From IMG/VR virus record IMGVR_UViG_3300028399_000030, positions 1 through 22,734 of that record: 22,734 nucleotides of DNA. The stretch is one strand, 5' to 3'. The notes under the pieces were generated by a model. The model was not told the origin of the DNA and searched no databases. It saw only the letters and a program-made list of their open reading frames with translations. This document shows, one piece after another, positions 8,789-22,518 of the stretch (positions within the stretch are counted from its first letter, which is position 1; every line of letters starts with the position of its first letter). Made by a program: the position numbers and the translations under genes. The DNA is from a virus.

Positions 8789-9123
8789 TGGCGGACGTGC
8801 TCGACAAGGCGGCGGTCAAGGCTCTGCGCGAGCTCGTCCGGCAGGAGGCGAAGCCGTCCGGCCCGCTACCGCCCGCACCTTCGCGGGCGGTCCCGGCGCA
8901 GACGGGTGTCGCCCGTCCCGCAGGCCTCAGGCAGGACGACGGCGGCGGTGGTGGCGGCATCGCCTCGCCGCTCTCCGAGGTGCCTGGCTCGCGCGTCTAC
9001 TACGCGCCGCAGAACGTGACGACCACTGACGGGGCGATCATCTTCCGCATCGAGGCGCTCAAGGAGATCCAGTTCGAGGACGCCAACGGCGAGACGATCA
9101 CGGTGCAGTTCCAGTCGTCATGA
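8788..9123 (+). CDS. Small phage structural protein, linker plus beta domain
   Basis: A 111-residue protein whose ATG lies 4 nt after a GGAGG site at 8779-8783; the GTG three bases upstream is too close to the site to be the start. Residues 1-25 form a helix (DKAAVKALRELVRQEAK), 25-58 a Pro/Gly-rich linker ending in a run of six glycines, and 60-111 a beta segment (GSRVYYAPQNVTTTDGAII...ETITVQFQSS). The arrangement suggests a tether or fibre-attachment protein of the tail tip. It ends in an ATGA overlap with the fibre-like gene. No family recognised. Confidence 0.6.
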   Translation: MADVLDKAAVKALRELVRQEAKPSGPLPPAPSRAVPAQTGVARPAGLRQDDGGGGGGIASPLSEVPGSRVYYAPQNVTTTDGAIIFRIEALKEIQFEDANGETITVQFQSS

Positions 9124-10997
9124 TCCCCATCAAGGTGCCCAACCTGGAGCTCTCGAGCGGCAAGCTGCCGGCGGCCTACCGCATCGATCCCGTCATGCTC
9201 GGGAATCCTTGGCATGGCCTGATCCGCCTCGGCGGATACGGCAATGACCAGCTCGAGACCAACGCGGGGCCGGTCGTGCCCTGCGATTATTCGAGCGCAT
9301 CTCTGTGGCCTGTGCAGCATTGCTATCTGTGGCGTCCTGGTCATGCACCGGGTGCGCCTGCGTGGATCGCCACTCCCAATCCTGATCCATCGACAGGCTA
9401 CGAGTACACCGACTATCTGCTTCACCCCTTCTATGTCAACAAAGGCTATCCCTCTTTTCCTCAGTTCATCTATCCGGAGCGAGCTGATTTCTCTGGGACA
9501 GAGGGATGCCACGGCAATTACATCGGTGAAGGGTGGCTCGCACATGGCTCCGACGGCCTCAACTGGTTCGTTGAGGCCCCAATCGTCAGTGGTTTCGCGC
9601 GTTACGATCCTGCCACAGATGAAGTGGCATTCGAAATTCGCGCACGTCCCTGGGGCGTCATTGCGCGCAATGAGCCAGCGCCTGTCGTATTGACCGGCAA
9701 CGCGCCTGCTGGGCAGGCCGGAAGTGCCGTACGTTTCGATGCCTATCCAGGGTATTTCGACGAGACGGCCGTGCATGATCTGGCAGTCGTAGCAGTTTCA
9801 CCTGATGGCACTCGCGTGCTCTTTGGGCTAGAGCTGAATCCGAGCGGGCAGGTCAAGACGCCGATGCGCGGTTATTTGGGGCTGTGGGAGGTCACGCTCA
9901 ATCTCGATGGTGCTGGCTCAACAATGACAGTCACGCTCACGAAGGACCGTGACGGCGCGTTGGGTTCTGTGAGCAAGACTGAAACGTTGACCATCTATGA
10001 GCGCAGAACACAGCTCAATGTGAACGAATATATCGATGCAAGTGGAAACAGGCATGTACAGTGGACAGGGTTGTCCTGGGTGGACGACACATCCACAACT
10101 CCTGAAGCAAGATACGAAGACAGGTTAGAGTCGTACAACCTGAACGGCCACGTGATCAGTGCTTACTTTGACCAATCCAACACGCTCAACTTGGTCTATG
10201 TCGATGCGACCTATACGCGCTCGGAGTCAGGGACGGAGAGCGCCAGCGCAGGTGGGGAATACGTCGAGGATCCCAGCGGGAATTGCATCTCAGACGATCG
10301 GTGGGCCTCGGCTGAGATCAGCAAAACGGGTAGTGCATCAGTGACCCTCACGATCCGAGACGATGCGGGGCAGTCCGTCTCGGTTTCGTACTCGCACTCC
10401 TTGTCTGCGAGCTACAGACACGACTGGGGATACAGTGGGTGCGGGGCCTATTACGACAACAAGACGCTCGACCAATCGGGCTCGATTTCGATGCCATGGG
10501 GGTCGTGGAATGACGCGATAACCAGTGACCCTGGCGGCGCCACCGCGGATGTCAAAGGGCTGGGTGACCTCGTGCTTTTCGGGTTTTATGAAAGTCCACC
10601 GAGTCCGTTCGCATACTTTCGGGGAAGGCTTGCTTTCGTTAACGAGGCTAATACGGCCTATGCCGTGGTGGCTGCCATTAACAATGAGTTGTGGGGGCAC
10701 ATCGCTGTGCGTGGATATCTCGACACTGCAACAAACGAGGAGGAGATAGTGGCTTGGGGTGATGACCCAGCCAATGTCCACGTTGGTCCGCTTTTCTCAC
10801 GATTTGGTGGAGTCGGAGGTGGATCGCTATCTTGGCCGAATTATCAGCCAAACCGTATTGCGACGCGTGCCCCGCTATGGCTCGAGCTGTATAACAGGGT
10901 GGGCGCTACGACAAATGCAACGTGTTGGCTCGCTTTCAACCCAGCGACTGGTCAGATTGGAACCGGCAATGATTTCAGGGGCGTGATTTGGCTGTAG
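9120..10997 (+). CDS. Probable tail fibre / receptor-binding protein (mosaic)
   Basis: A 625-residue protein starting at an ATG that overlaps the preceding stop. The first ~45 residues are encoded in GC-rich DNA like the neighbours, then composition drops sharply from about base 9250 to the end, with many A/T third positions. The protein is rich in Tyr, Trp, Asn, Ser and Thr, low in Lys, and beta-rich throughout, as expected for a secreted or surface-exposed adhesin. A central segment has short strands such as SGTESASAGGEYVEDPSGNC and SVSVSYSHSLSASYRHDW. No catalytic motif is evident. The composition step inside the gene suggests that a conserved N-terminal anchor was joined to a swapped host-range domain. 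Confidence 0.65.
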   Translation: MIPIKVPNLELSSGKLPAAYRIDPVMLGNPWHGLIRLGGYGNDQLETNAGPVVPCDYSSASLWPVQHCYLWRPGHAPGAPAWIATPNPDPSTGYEYTDYLLHPFYVNKGYPSFPQFIYPERADFSGTEGCHGNYIGEGWLAHGSDGLNWFVEAPIVSGFARYDPATDEVAFEIRARPWGVIARNEPAPVVLTGNAPAGQAGSAVRFDAYPGYFDETAVHDLAVVAVSPDGTRVLFGLELNPSGQVKTPMRGYLGLWEVTLNLDGAGSTMTVTLTKDRDGALGSVSKTETLTIYERRTQLNVNEYIDASGNRHVQWTGLSWVDDTSTTPEARYEDRLESYNLNGHVISAYFDQSNTLNLVYVDATYTRSESGTESASAGGEYVEDPSGNCISDDRWASAEISKTGSASVTLTIRDDAGQSVSVSYSHSLSASYRHDWGYSGCGAYYDNKTLDQSGSISMPWGSWNDAITSDPGGATADVKGLGDLVLFGFYESPPSPFAYFRGRLAFVNEANTAYAVVAAINNELWGHIAVRGYLDTATNEEEIVAWGDDPANVHVGPLFSRFGGVGGGSLSWPNYQPNRIATRAPLWLELYNRVGATTNATCWLAFNPATGQIGTGNDFRGVIWL

Positions 10998-11008
10998 AGG
11001 GAGGGGGA

Positions 11009-11905
11009 ATGCTCGCCAACTGGGTCAAGCAAGGGACAAGCACCACAGGAACGGGCGCCATCACGCTCGATGGCACGCCGCCGGCAGGGTACGTCGCGTT
11101 CAAGGATGTATTCGTTGATGGAGAGGTTGTTCTCTACGTCATAGAAGACGGAAATAATAGGGAACTGGGAATTGGAAAGCTAACCTCGGGGGCTAACTGG
11201 ACACTTACGCGCGGCTTTGTTTTCGAGACACTATCTGGGGGTACATATACGAGAGCAAGCGGCTTAACATCTGCTAGCCCCCTTTCGCTAAGCGGGAACG
11301 CTGTTGTAACCGTTGATGCGGCGACGCACTCTCTCGGGACATTTTTTAGGACGTTCAACGCGGGAGCGACGGTTCCAGGGATCCTTCCAGCCAATACCGT
11401 AGTAGACACGACATACGGGCTAACTGAACAGTTCTCCGCAACTGACGCGCTGGTTGCGTGGCCCGCTAGATTCAATCACTTCACTACAGTTAGCAAGGCA
11501 TATGTAGAGGTTACAACAGCTGCTGGGACTAAGATGCGGATTGGCATATACACGGACGGTGGGGGAGCTTCCTTTAGGCCCGGCAAGCTCTTAGCTGAAA
11601 CGGGTGATATTGATACGTCAACCACAGGTGTGAAGTCAGCAACCTTGAGTGCCACGGTTTTCTTGCGCCCTGGATGGTATTGGTTGGGCTTTATCGCTGA
11701 TGGGGACCCGACCCTTAGGACGTTCAGTGGTACGACCGGTGACGGGTGCGAGTTTCGTGGCACAACTGGCGTATACGGCCAAAACATACATAGAGGTGCG
11801 TATACAACTGGATGGACATCTATGCCGCCTGACGGGGCCTCCCTATCTGGATGGGGCGGCGAGAGCGCTGTCAAAGAAATTCCTGCTATCTGGTTAGTGC
11901 CATGA
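11009..11905 (+). CDS. Tail fibre protein with conserved phage N-terminal domain
   Basis: A 298-residue protein. The ATG at 11009 follows a strong GGAGGGGG site; a TTG at 10988 inside the upstream gene is less likely. Residues 1-100 (LANWVKQGTSTTGTGAI, then GYVAFKDVFVDGEVVLYVIE, DGNNRELGIGKL, ETLSGGTYTRAS and SLSGNAVVTVDA) match a widespread N-terminal domain of phage tail fibres. Residues 130-298 look like a beta-sandwich (KMRIGIYTDGGGASFRPGKLL, WYWLGFIADGDPT), probably carbohydrate-binding. The whole gene has lower GC than the structural genes around it. It overlaps the next gene by ATGA. Confidence 0.75.
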   Translation: MLANWVKQGTSTTGTGAITLDGTPPAGYVAFKDVFVDGEVVLYVIEDGNNRELGIGKLTSGANWTLTRGFVFETLSGGTYTRASGLTSASPLSLSGNAVVTVDAATHSLGTFFRTFNAGATVPGILPANTVVDTTYGLTEQFSATDALVAWPARFNHFTTVSKAYVEVTTAAGTKMRIGIYTDGGGASFRPGKLLAETGDIDTSTTGVKSATLSATVFLRPGWYWLGFIADGDPTLRTFSGTTGDGCEFRGTTGVYGQNIHRGAYTTGWTSMPPDGASLSGWGGESAVKEIPAIWLVP

Positions 11906-12417
11906 TTACCTATACAGAGAAAGGATACTGGCTTCATGAAGAGATCAGGCGCCAAGGCCACTGGCTCGAACAGCGCGACGGCGTGTGGGTCAGCAGCGAC
12001 GACGCGGCCGTGCAGGCCATCATCGACGCCTTCGACCCGCTCCCGCACGCCCAGCGCGAGGCGAGCGAGCGCGTGGACGAGGCGGCTGGCAAGGCGCGCG
12101 CCCGCTACATCACCTGGAAGCCTGGGCAGGAAGCGGTCTACCAGCTCAAGCGCGAGCAAGCGCAGGCCTACAAGGCTGCCGGCTACCCGGCGGACGCCTC
12201 GCCCTGGCCGCTGATCGACGCGGAAGCGCAGGCCCGCGGCATCAGCGCGCAGCAGATCGCAGACGAGATCCTCGCGATCGCCGCTGCCTGGGTGCAGAAG
12301 GCGGCGCAGATCGAGGCGATCCGCATGAAGGCCAAGGCCGACATCAAGGCCGCGACCGACTGGCAGGCCTGCCTCGCCATCGCTGAGCAGGCCGAGCGCG
12401 ATCTGGAGGCGGTATGA
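11902..12417 (+). CDS. Tail fibre assembly / accessory protein
   Basis: A 171-residue protein directly after the fibre gene (ATGA overlap). The N-terminus (MITYTEKGYWLHEEIRRQG) is in the low-GC DNA, and normal high GC resumes about base 11940. The C-terminal half is helical, with KARARYITWKPGQEAVYQLKR, AAGYPADASPWPLIDAEA and TDWQACLAIAEQAERDLEAV, a pattern found in phage tail fibre assembly and DUF4376-like accessory proteins (a regular chain ending in a helical bundle). Such proteins either help trimerise fibres or form a small helical tip. The family is recognised only approximately. Confidence 0.6.
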   Translation: MITYTEKGYWLHEEIRRQGHWLEQRDGVWVSSDDAAVQAIIDAFDPLPHAQREASERVDEAAGKARARYITWKPGQEAVYQLKREQAQAYKAAGYPADASPWPLIDAEAQARGISAQQIADEILAIAAAWVQKAAQIEAIRMKAKADIKAATDWQACLAIAEQAERDLEAV

Positions 12418-21244: not shown

Positions 21245-21273
21245 AATATAGCGAGTGCTATATCTCATGTCAA
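21245..21273 (-). promoter_or_regulatory. Leftward early promoter (sigma70-type)
   Basis: On the minus strand TTGACA (21268-21273) is followed by a 17-bp spacer and TATATT (21245-21250): full consensus -35, optimal spacing, five of six in the -10. It faces the leftward operon that starts at 21114. Both operators below overlap or flank it. Confidence 0.85.
21246..21263. promoter_or_regulatory. Operator 1, ATATAGCGAGTGCTATAT
   Basis: A perfect inverted repeat with 7-bp arms and a 4-bp centre covers the spacer and most of the -10 of the leftward promoter. It shares TAGCRAGYGCTA with operator 2. Such TAGC-N4-GCTA sites are the kind bound by phage CI-type repressors; the C-terminal part of one is encoded at the right end of the window. 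Confidence 0.75.
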
Positions 21274-21285
21274 TAGCAAGCGCTA
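21274..21285. promoter_or_regulatory. Operator 2, TAGCAAGCGCTA
   Basis: Second copy of the TAGC-N4-GCTA element, directly upstream of the -35, with centres 25 bp from operator 1. Two operators over one promoter suggest cooperative repression. Confidence 0.7.
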
Positions 21286-21393
21286 CATGATGACCCCACC
21301 TTCAGGGCCGGGCGGGCGGAGGGGGGGCCGATTAGCTGGCCAAAACCAGGGGAACAGCGCGCAATAACGTGGCGCGAAAATTGCATGAAACTT

Positions 21394-21434
21394 GATACCA
21401 AAATGGTGTCACAGTGATACCGCAATGCTATGAT
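21394..21434 (+). promoter_or_regulatory. Rightward promoter with extended -10 and overlapping operator repeats
   Basis: An extended -10, TG-C-TATGAT, lies at 21426-21434; GTGTCA at 21406-21411 is a possible -35 with a 17-bp spacer. The same stretch holds three alternating copies of a GATACC/GGTGTC element. Arms 21405-21412 and 21414-21421 form a near-perfect 17-bp palindrome, and 21394-21400 with 21404-21410 form another. It faces the three-gene cassette at 21517 and looks autoregulated. Confidence 0.6.
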
Positions 21435-21516: not shown

Positions 21517-21879
21517 ATGGAAGAGAAAAAGGAGTCTCGGCAGAAGCTTCGATTCAAGTACGTTTTCGACGATGACTACAATCCCGTATACGCGAACGGC
21601 GCGTATGGAGGCGTGTCTCCGCGGGGTGAGATCGTGATCAACTTTTACCATGAACGGCCGGCTTTGCCGCGTGACACATTTCAGGGATTGTCGGTATCCG
21701 GGTTTCCTGAGGGCGCTGAAGAGGTGCCCGACGAAGTCTCAAGGACACTGATTCGCAAGGTTACGGCCGGCGTGGTAATGAACTACGACACCGCGAAAGC
21801 TGTCCATGAGTGGCTCGGTCGCCATCTGAGGCGTCTGGAACAGGCGAGGAAGGAGACCGGCAATGGTGGCGACCGTTGA
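21517..21879 (+). CDS. First gene of accessory cassette, unknown (possibly DUF3467-like)
   Basis: A 120-residue protein. ATG 21517 is chosen with a GGGG-rich site before it; an in-frame ATG at 21430 lies inside the promoter -10 and is unlikely. Motifs: KYVFDDDYNPVYANGAYGGVSP then RGEIVINFYHERPALPRD, and a C-terminal AGVVMNYDTAKAVHEWLGRHLRRLEQ. The Y-A-N...V-x-S/P...I-x-F and V-V-M-x-x-x-x-A-K-A-(x)-x-x-x-L layout resembles DUF3467-type proteins, but I am not certain. Gene overlaps the next by 17 nt. Lower GC than the operons on both sides. It may be a partner or regulator of the HicB/HicA-like pair. Confidence 0.6.
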   Translation: MEEKKESRQKLRFKYVFDDDYNPVYANGAYGGVSPRGEIVINFYHERPALPRDTFQGLSVSGFPEGAEEVPDEVSRTLIRKVTAGVVMNYDTAKAVHEWLGRHLRRLEQARKETGNGGDR

Positions 21880-22246
21880 GTTCTTGCAGACGTCAGCCCC
21901 CGGCATAAAGGCACCCGTGGAAGCAGGGACTTCGACCACGGAGCTCGAGGAGCAGCGAGTCCCGCTGGAGGTATGGGACGACTCGGACACGTTCGATCTC
22001 ATACTGGAAGTTCCGGGCAAAAGGCTAGTGCGCCCCATCGAAGCTCACGTCCAGTGGGATGAAGTCCATTGGCTTGCGACGACCGAGGTGGCGCCTCTTT
22101 ATGCAACAGGTGCGAGCAGGGAAGAGGCCGTTGAGAGTCTCGCCCATGAGATCGGAATGCTCATTGATGAGCTGGAAGAGATGGACGAGCGCGAGCCAGA
22201 GTGGGATCTCGTGCTGCAAAGGCTAAGGGAATATGTGGAGCGATGA
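21863..22246 (+). CDS. HicB-like antitoxin candidate
   Basis: A 127-residue protein with an AGGAG site 7 nt before its ATG. Residues about 35-105 have the HicB layout of alternating strands and one helix: LILEV, HVQWDEVHWLATTEVAPLYATGASREEAVESLAHEI, matching the family's W-x-A...L-P-x-x-x-A-x-G-x-(T/S)-x-E-E-A-x-x-x-L core. HicB proteins neutralise HicA toxins and often bind their own operator, which the repeats at 21394-21421 could provide. The N-terminal ~35 residues are extra, and there is no obvious C-terminal HTH. The gene precedes its toxin partner, the less common B-A order. ATGA overlap with the next gene. Confidence 0.55.
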   Translation: MVATVEFLQTSAPGIKAPVEAGTSTTELEEQRVPLEVWDDSDTFDLILEVPGKRLVRPIEAHVQWDEVHWLATTEVAPLYATGASREEAVESLAHEIGMLIDELEEMDEREPEWDLVLQRLREYVER

Positions 22247-22518
22247 CCCAATATTCTGGGCTTCGGATCAAGCAGATTTGCGAAAACAAGCTCGGGATCG
22301 AGTTCAGAAGTGGCCGCGGCAGCCACCGCAATGGCTGGTACGTGAGGAACGGTAGAAAGCTGAAGCGCATCACGGTGCCCTGCACGCGTGATGAAGTTCC
22401 CCCCAAGACCTTCGGAAGCATGGCGCGCCAGCTTGGCTTGAACAAAAGGGAGTTCGACGAGCTATTACGCTGCATCCTGGACGAGGATGAGTATTTTGCG
22501 CTGATCATGCACCGGTGA
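22243..22518 (+). CDS. HicA-like toxin candidate
   Basis: A 91-residue basic protein with a dsRBD-like HicA pattern: an N-terminal helix, then FRSGRGSHRNGWYVRNG with a Gly-Ser-His motif (H28), KRITVPCTRDEVPPKTFGSM with TVP and P-K-T-F, and a helix ending RQLGLNKREFDELL. In known HicA proteins the His after G-S is the catalytic residue for mRNA cleavage in translation. The C-terminal extension to 91 residues is longer than the classic 60-70. The ATG overlaps the previous stop (ATGA), giving coupled antitoxin and toxin synthesis. Divergent from classic HicA, so a related nuclease or inactive relative is possible. Confidence 0.55.
   Translation: MTQYSGLRIKQICENKLGIEFRSGRGSHRNGWYVRNGRKLKRITVPCTRDEVPPKTFGSMARQLGLNKREFDELLRCILDEDEYFALIMHR

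Follow-up and report, generated by a model that had tools for sequence, protein, structure and literature searches.

In the paaR-paaA-parE operon, PaaR supplies DNA binding for the antitoxin, and in lambda, rexAB is co-transcribed with cI. According to Makarova et al. 2009, HicA-HicB occurs only as a unique pair (PMC2701414). A 2024 classification by Gerdes distinguishes 14 HicA contexts (classes 1-14), in which the hicB-hicA order is ordinary (classes 2 and 5-8) and many small class 2 HicB proteins lack a DNA-binding domain (PMC10865869). In TAC systems, SecB-like chaperones serve HigBA, HicAB, and MqsRA, and a C-terminal extension of the antitoxin imposes chaperone dependence (PMC5105189). 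In CmdTAC, a phage capsid protein draws the chaperone off and so releases the toxin, the chaperone being a capsid sensor (PMC11618068). Three-part toxin-antitoxin systems are important because their third protein can, as in CmdTAC, sense phage infection. The viral locus described here, in which a DUF3467 gene leads a HicB-like and a HicA-like gene, together with DUF3467-type genes that stand first before several unrelated toxin-antitoxin pairs, suggests a tripartite toxin-antitoxin system of a kind not yet described. A DUF3467 gene is missing from all 14 published HicA contexts (PMC10865869), and the suggestion in the preliminary description that the system is undescribed survives this literature check; of the gene order that it took to be distinctive, the extra leading gene lies outside the published contexts, whereas the B-A order is ordinary.

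The window, meaning the whole stretch of DNA analysed, comprises 22,734 nt (positions 1 to 22,734 of IMG/VR record IMGVR_UViG_3300028399_000030). Its gene content by Pfam and PHROG is that of a temperate siphovirus fragment, with a major head protein at the contig start and genes for a tape measure protein, a tyrosine-type integrase, a ParB-like protein, and a CI/S24 repressor. The trio is flanked by the leftward early operon on one side and the repressor gene on the other, and it is read on the plus strand, convergent with cI on the minus strand (Table 1). In agreement with the preliminary description, three overlapping genes of 120, 127, and 91 codons were found, translationally coupled by a 17-nt overlap between the first and second genes and a 4-nt ATGA overlap (22243-22246) between the second and third, with hicB adjacent to and co-translated with hicA. 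The GC content of the trio (57.0%) was also below that of both neighbours, as had been described (71.7% leftward and 67.2% for the cI fragment, with 68.7% for the contig); 8.7% of the 1-kb windows of the contig, chiefly at 9.2-12 kb, were equally GC-poor, and the trio is not the sole low-GC stretch. This second block (window 9200-12000, GC 0.53-0.59 vs. 0.69 for the contig) adjoins the tail genes, holds two genes (9120-10997 and 10988-11905), and is probably a recent acquisition.

The promoter-like site directly upstream of the trio is distinct from the leftward promoter, and two promoter-like sites were seen in the region against 0.3 expected. The direct repeat that overlaps the upstream site is possibly the operator of the trio. 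The near-palindromes over the leftward promoter, of which there were two in the window against 0.17 expected for a pattern composed after the sites had been seen, are candidate CI (repressor) operators.

Table 1. Features of the trio and its surroundings in the window.
Feature	Position	Strand	Basis
DUF3467 protein P0001, 120 aa	21517..21879	+	Pfam PF11950, 29.5 bits, E 7.6e-7
HicB-like antitoxin P0002, 127 aa	21863..22246	+	Family profile vs. canonical HicB
HicA-like toxin P0003, 91 aa	22243..22518	+	PHROG 353 toxin; profile vs. canonical HicA
Promoter-like site GTGTCA-17-TATGAT, extended -10, directly 5' of the trio	21406..21434	+	9/12 consensus match only
Direct repeat TGATACC(A/G)(A/C)AATG, twice, overlapping the putative trio promoter	21393..21427	+	Repeat search; two copies only
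Leftward promoter TTGACA-17-TATATT	21273-21245	-	11/12 consensus; stronger than the trio's site
Two near-palindromes TAGC(G/A)AG(T/C)GCTA (2 copies of TAGCRAGYGCTA) over the leftward promoter	within 21245..21285		Pattern composed after the sites had been seen
S24/CI-type repressor, C-terminal part, truncated by the contig end	22528..22734	-	Pfam Peptidase_S24 7.5e-9; PHROG 4 repressor 2.3e-12

The third protein, P0003, matched the PHROG 353 toxin family (E 1.8e-7) and Pfam HicA_toxin (PF07927; E 4.9e-5), the latter at 23.8 bits, which is under the cut-off of 27 for curated membership. Profile comparison of the P0003 family with canonical HicA gave a score of 59.5 (P 2.8e-11), against 14.9 for the best of 60 shuffles, and P0003 is, on these sequence grounds, a divergent HicA. 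It retains the G26-S27-H28 motif and carries a C-terminal extension of about 20 residues. In its closest relatives (L027, L039, and L050-L053), the histidine of this motif is missing and Glu or a neighbouring residue is found instead, while S-H is kept in L055/L056. The remaining core is kept in L050-L053 and related HicA-like proteins in which this histidine is replaced. In HicA of B. pseudomallei, the H24A variant is non-toxic, the histidine being needed for toxicity (PMC3969222). Because our canonical HicA set was gathered with a pattern demanding the histidine, its conservation in that set is not evidence.

The second protein, P0002, matched no Pfam or NCBIfam family and had no significant PHROG match. 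It is 32-35% identical to second genes of other trios described below. The partial RNase H-type domain of HicB was not matched in the Pfam scan, but comparison of its family profile with canonical HicB gave a score of 37.1 (P 1.3e-5) against a shuffled maximum of 13.8. Judged by this comparison, P0002 is probably a divergent HicB. Its C-terminus coincides with the end of HicB-like proteins from two-gene loci, the extra length being N-terminal, where a low-complexity segment of about 50 residues is found; no DNA-binding domain and no Phd/YefM domain was detected in P0002.

The first protein, P0001, is a member of DUF3467 at 29.5 bits against the curated Pfam cut-off of 25. We know of no function for this Pfam family. 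A relative of P0001 (51% identical) leads a MazF operon on another virus contig (L002/L003), and relatives in Geobacter-type genomes are 37-45% identical. Comparison of the P0001-type subgroup with core DUF3467 profiles gave a score of 34.5 against a maximum of 16.8 in 60 shuffles, and the operon-linked DUF3467 types form divergent subgroups, several of them under the Pfam cut-off. The profile comparison of each protein proposed in the preliminary description placed the HicA, HicB, and DUF3467 relations above shuffles, in keeping with its HicB-like and G-S-H-bearing HicA-like calls, and replaced its wholly unknown leading protein with a named family. PADLOC and NCBIfam gave no match for P0001, P0002, or P0003, and in the full-text literature, with subscription journals mostly outside it, DUF3467 was mentioned in a single paper, on chlorhexidine and Porphyromonas gingivalis. 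Sequence searches for a relative of DUF3467 with a solved structure found none, two structure predictions were of low confidence (pLDDT 55 and 67), and a fold search with these models gave nothing usable (best E 0.33); therefore, no conclusion on the fold was drawn.

DUF3467 was also considered as a SecB homologue. The profile comparison with SecB scored 11.1 against a shuffled mean of 11.8, which is shuffle level, and the SecB family was absent from the trio proteins in the Pfam scan; this candidate was rejected at the sequence level, and a relation of a purely structural kind is possible. Distant SecB-like proteins, weak matches that lie above the Pfam cut-off, were seen at L123-L126.

To look for the same trio elsewhere, as the preliminary description had suggested, we surveyed genomes of one bacterial phylum, that of Geobacter-type genomes, with up to 395 genomes per search. 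The same order of DUF3467-type, HicB-like, and HicA-like genes was found in five divergent bacterial genomes (L027, L039, L058 (= L186), L059, and L211). Identity to P0001 is 23-44% for the DUF3467 proteins of these trios (17-44% when all six are compared with one another), and identity to P0003 is 19-47% for the HicA-like proteins. The DUF3467 protein of L059 is above the Pfam cut-off, those of L211 and L027 match under it, and for L039 and L058 the call comes from the subgroup profile, of which L039 is itself a member. Because the trios are divergent, single inheritance from a recent ancestor is unlikely. A DUF3467-type gene stood directly upstream on the same strand at 5 of 19 HicA-like loci, against about 0.001 expected from about 0.35 such genes per genome and an assumed average of about 3,200 genes per genome, with genome relatedness uncorrected. 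The other 14 or so loci, a few of them on short contigs, have the pair without DUF3467 (L050-L057, L063, L209, L210, and L212 among them); the gene is therefore not needed by all pairs of the P0002-P0003 type. The trio is thus conserved in bacterial genomes of this phylum, so that one of the two refuting outcomes named in the preliminary description did not occur. The HicBA version turned up in no further virus: single-sequence searches of viral contigs, phages, and plasmids gave no relatives of P0003, nor did later profile scans of viral contigs give any P0003-type protein. The viral trio therefore rests on the window and on the MazF variant of L002/L003. At L195 (G130:C123), the DUF3467-HicBA trio is directly preceded by a VapBC-like pair (299-1010), which suggests a toxin-antitoxin gene cluster.

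The pair behind the same first gene is exchanged among operons. DUF3467-type genes lead MazF pairs in L002/L003 and L028, the former operon being flanked by a terminase gene on one side and, beyond one intervening gene, by a CI-type repressor on the other. They also lead RelE-like pairs in L102, L104, and L105, an assignment made by eye and from a weak PHROG RelE-like match for L104 (E 0.011). A recurring unnamed pair without a Pfam match, consisting of a W-(N/D)-G-x-G protein and an N-R-(S/E)-K protein, follows DUF3467 in L032 (1842-2844), L033 (1842-2838), and L181 (1868-2885) and is a candidate toxin-antitoxin pair. A second recurring unnamed pair follows it in L029 (420-1044), L183 (1818-2436), and L185 (reverse strand, 1805-2445); in L185, an integrase-like gene comes directly after the pair. 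The scanned proteins of both sets matched no Pfam family, apart from a weak winged-helix similarity in L029. Further candidate pairs were seen in L098 and L191. In all of these operons, DUF3467 comes first, and the genes overlap, as most do, or nearly touch. Most of the antitoxins, in this small sample, start with 40-60 low-complexity residues before the toxin-binding core; the RelE-like operons lack this segment.

The majority of DUF3467 genes stand alone or beside ordinary genes, such as MiaB-like ones, and since most lie away from toxin-antitoxin genes, the family has other roles. The position directly before a MiaB-like gene recurs in many genomes and is a conserved pairing (L034-L038, L168, L175, L179, and L184).

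The reading that we favour, with about even confidence, is that the trio forms a type II toxin-antitoxin operon of three parts in which the DUF3467 protein acts as an antitoxin-binding helper or sensor, in the manner of SecB in TAC. By homology, HicA would be an RNA-cleaving toxin that HicB binds and neutralises. The DUF3467 protein, translated first from the shared mRNA, would bind the antitoxin, probably at its long low-complexity N-terminal segment as this emerges from the ribosome, and would keep it folded or safe from proteases. If infection by another phage or loss of the prophage titrated the DUF3467 protein off or removed it, the antitoxin would fail and HicA would halt translation. 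In a lysogen, the outcome could be that superinfecting phages are warded off or that the prophage is stabilised post-segregationally. Because the component is common to several toxin families, action on antitoxins or on regulation is likelier than action on one toxin, and the occurrence of a single leading gene with many different pairs is in keeping with a helper that acts on antitoxins, as SecB does in TAC. A broader proposal, which we regard as tentative and somewhat doubtful, is that DUF3467-type proteins serve generally as a third, non-SecB component of type II toxin-antitoxin systems in phages and chromosomes, a promiscuous antitoxin partner of HicBA, MazEF, RelBE-like, and unnamed pairs that senses infection or prophage loss.

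The main rival follows from the finding that recognised DNA-binding domains (HTH, RHH, or AbrB in Pfam) are mostly absent from the antitoxins of DUF3467-led operons, the exception being the weak winged-helix similarity in L029. The DUF3467 protein could then be the transcriptional regulator of the operon or a DNA-binding partner that, like PaaR, replaces the domain missing from the antitoxin and binds the direct repeat. The MazE-like second genes of L002 and L028 accord with this, having an acidic tail of the toxin-binding type while the usual DNA-binding half is absent, as does the overlap of the repeat with the putative promoter. However, a two-copy repeat may be chance, the small class 2 HicB proteins without a DNA-binding domain manage without such a partner (PMC10865869), and the strands-plus-one-helix pattern predicted for DUF3467, at low confidence, contains no known DNA-binding motif. 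We consider this regulatory role unlikely, although its probability is not negligible.

Could the first gene simply be an independent passenger with an unrelated job, placed before an ordinary hicBA pair? The solitary state of most DUF3467 genes and the many hicBA-like pairs of the P0002-P0003 type without one would suit such an arrangement, which nevertheless appears improbable given five divergent trios beyond the window where about 0.001 were expected, and given the same leading gene before at least five kinds of pair, invariably in first place and with gene overlap in most cases. It is also conceivable that the pair is no longer a toxin and antitoxin, the HicA-like protein having turned into an RNA-binding protein with altered catalysis, and the trio into a regulator of expression in lysogeny. 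The close relatives of P0003 that lack the toxicity-essential histidine would fit, but P0003 itself keeps G-S-H, L055/L056 keep S-H, and the remaining HicA core is conserved, and we judge this quite improbable.

If, as in the helper reading that we prefer, a second family, unrelated to SecB, has the third-component place, in front of several toxin families, a domain of unknown function would gain a function. DUF3467 could serve as bait for new toxin-antitoxin pairs, at least two unnamed pairs having already been seen, and its operons could show whether antitoxins came under the control of a helper on more than one occasion. Since a DUF3467 operon lies close to the repressor gene in two phages, a role in the lysogen is testable.

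Compared with described systems, the trio resembles lambda rexAB in its location between the leftward promoter and cI, and this part of the rexAB-like placement given in the preliminary description stands. Unlike rexAB, it lies on the strand opposite to cI, has a promoter-like site of its own, and shows no recognised relation; since it faces the repressor on the other strand, the two do not share a transcript in the way that rexAB and cI do. Homology to rexAB was considered and dropped; Pfam and PHROG gave no RexA or RexB family match. HipBST (PMC10627512) and paaR-paaA-parE likewise have an accessory gene beside an antitoxin-toxin pair, but their families are different, and no sequence resemblance was recognised. 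The trio shares with type II hicBA (Gerdes 2024 classes 2 and 5) the position of hicB before hicA, the overlap, the HicA core with G-S-H, and, probably, the HicB core by profile; it differs in its leading DUF3467 gene, in a HicB of 127 aa without detectable Phd/YefM, and in the short C-terminal extension of its HicA. The pair alone resembles published class 2, but the HicB of the trio is longer. With TAC, including CmdTAC, the trio has in common a three-gene operon and a third protein that occurs with several unrelated toxin-antitoxin families, including HicAB. In contrast to TAC, its third component is DUF3467, which is not SecB by sequence and precedes the pair, whereas the third component of the M. 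tuberculosis operon stands at the end, and the extra segment of its antitoxin is N-terminal rather than a C-terminal ChAD. On these three counts the trio is therefore not a member of TAC, though it may work like one.
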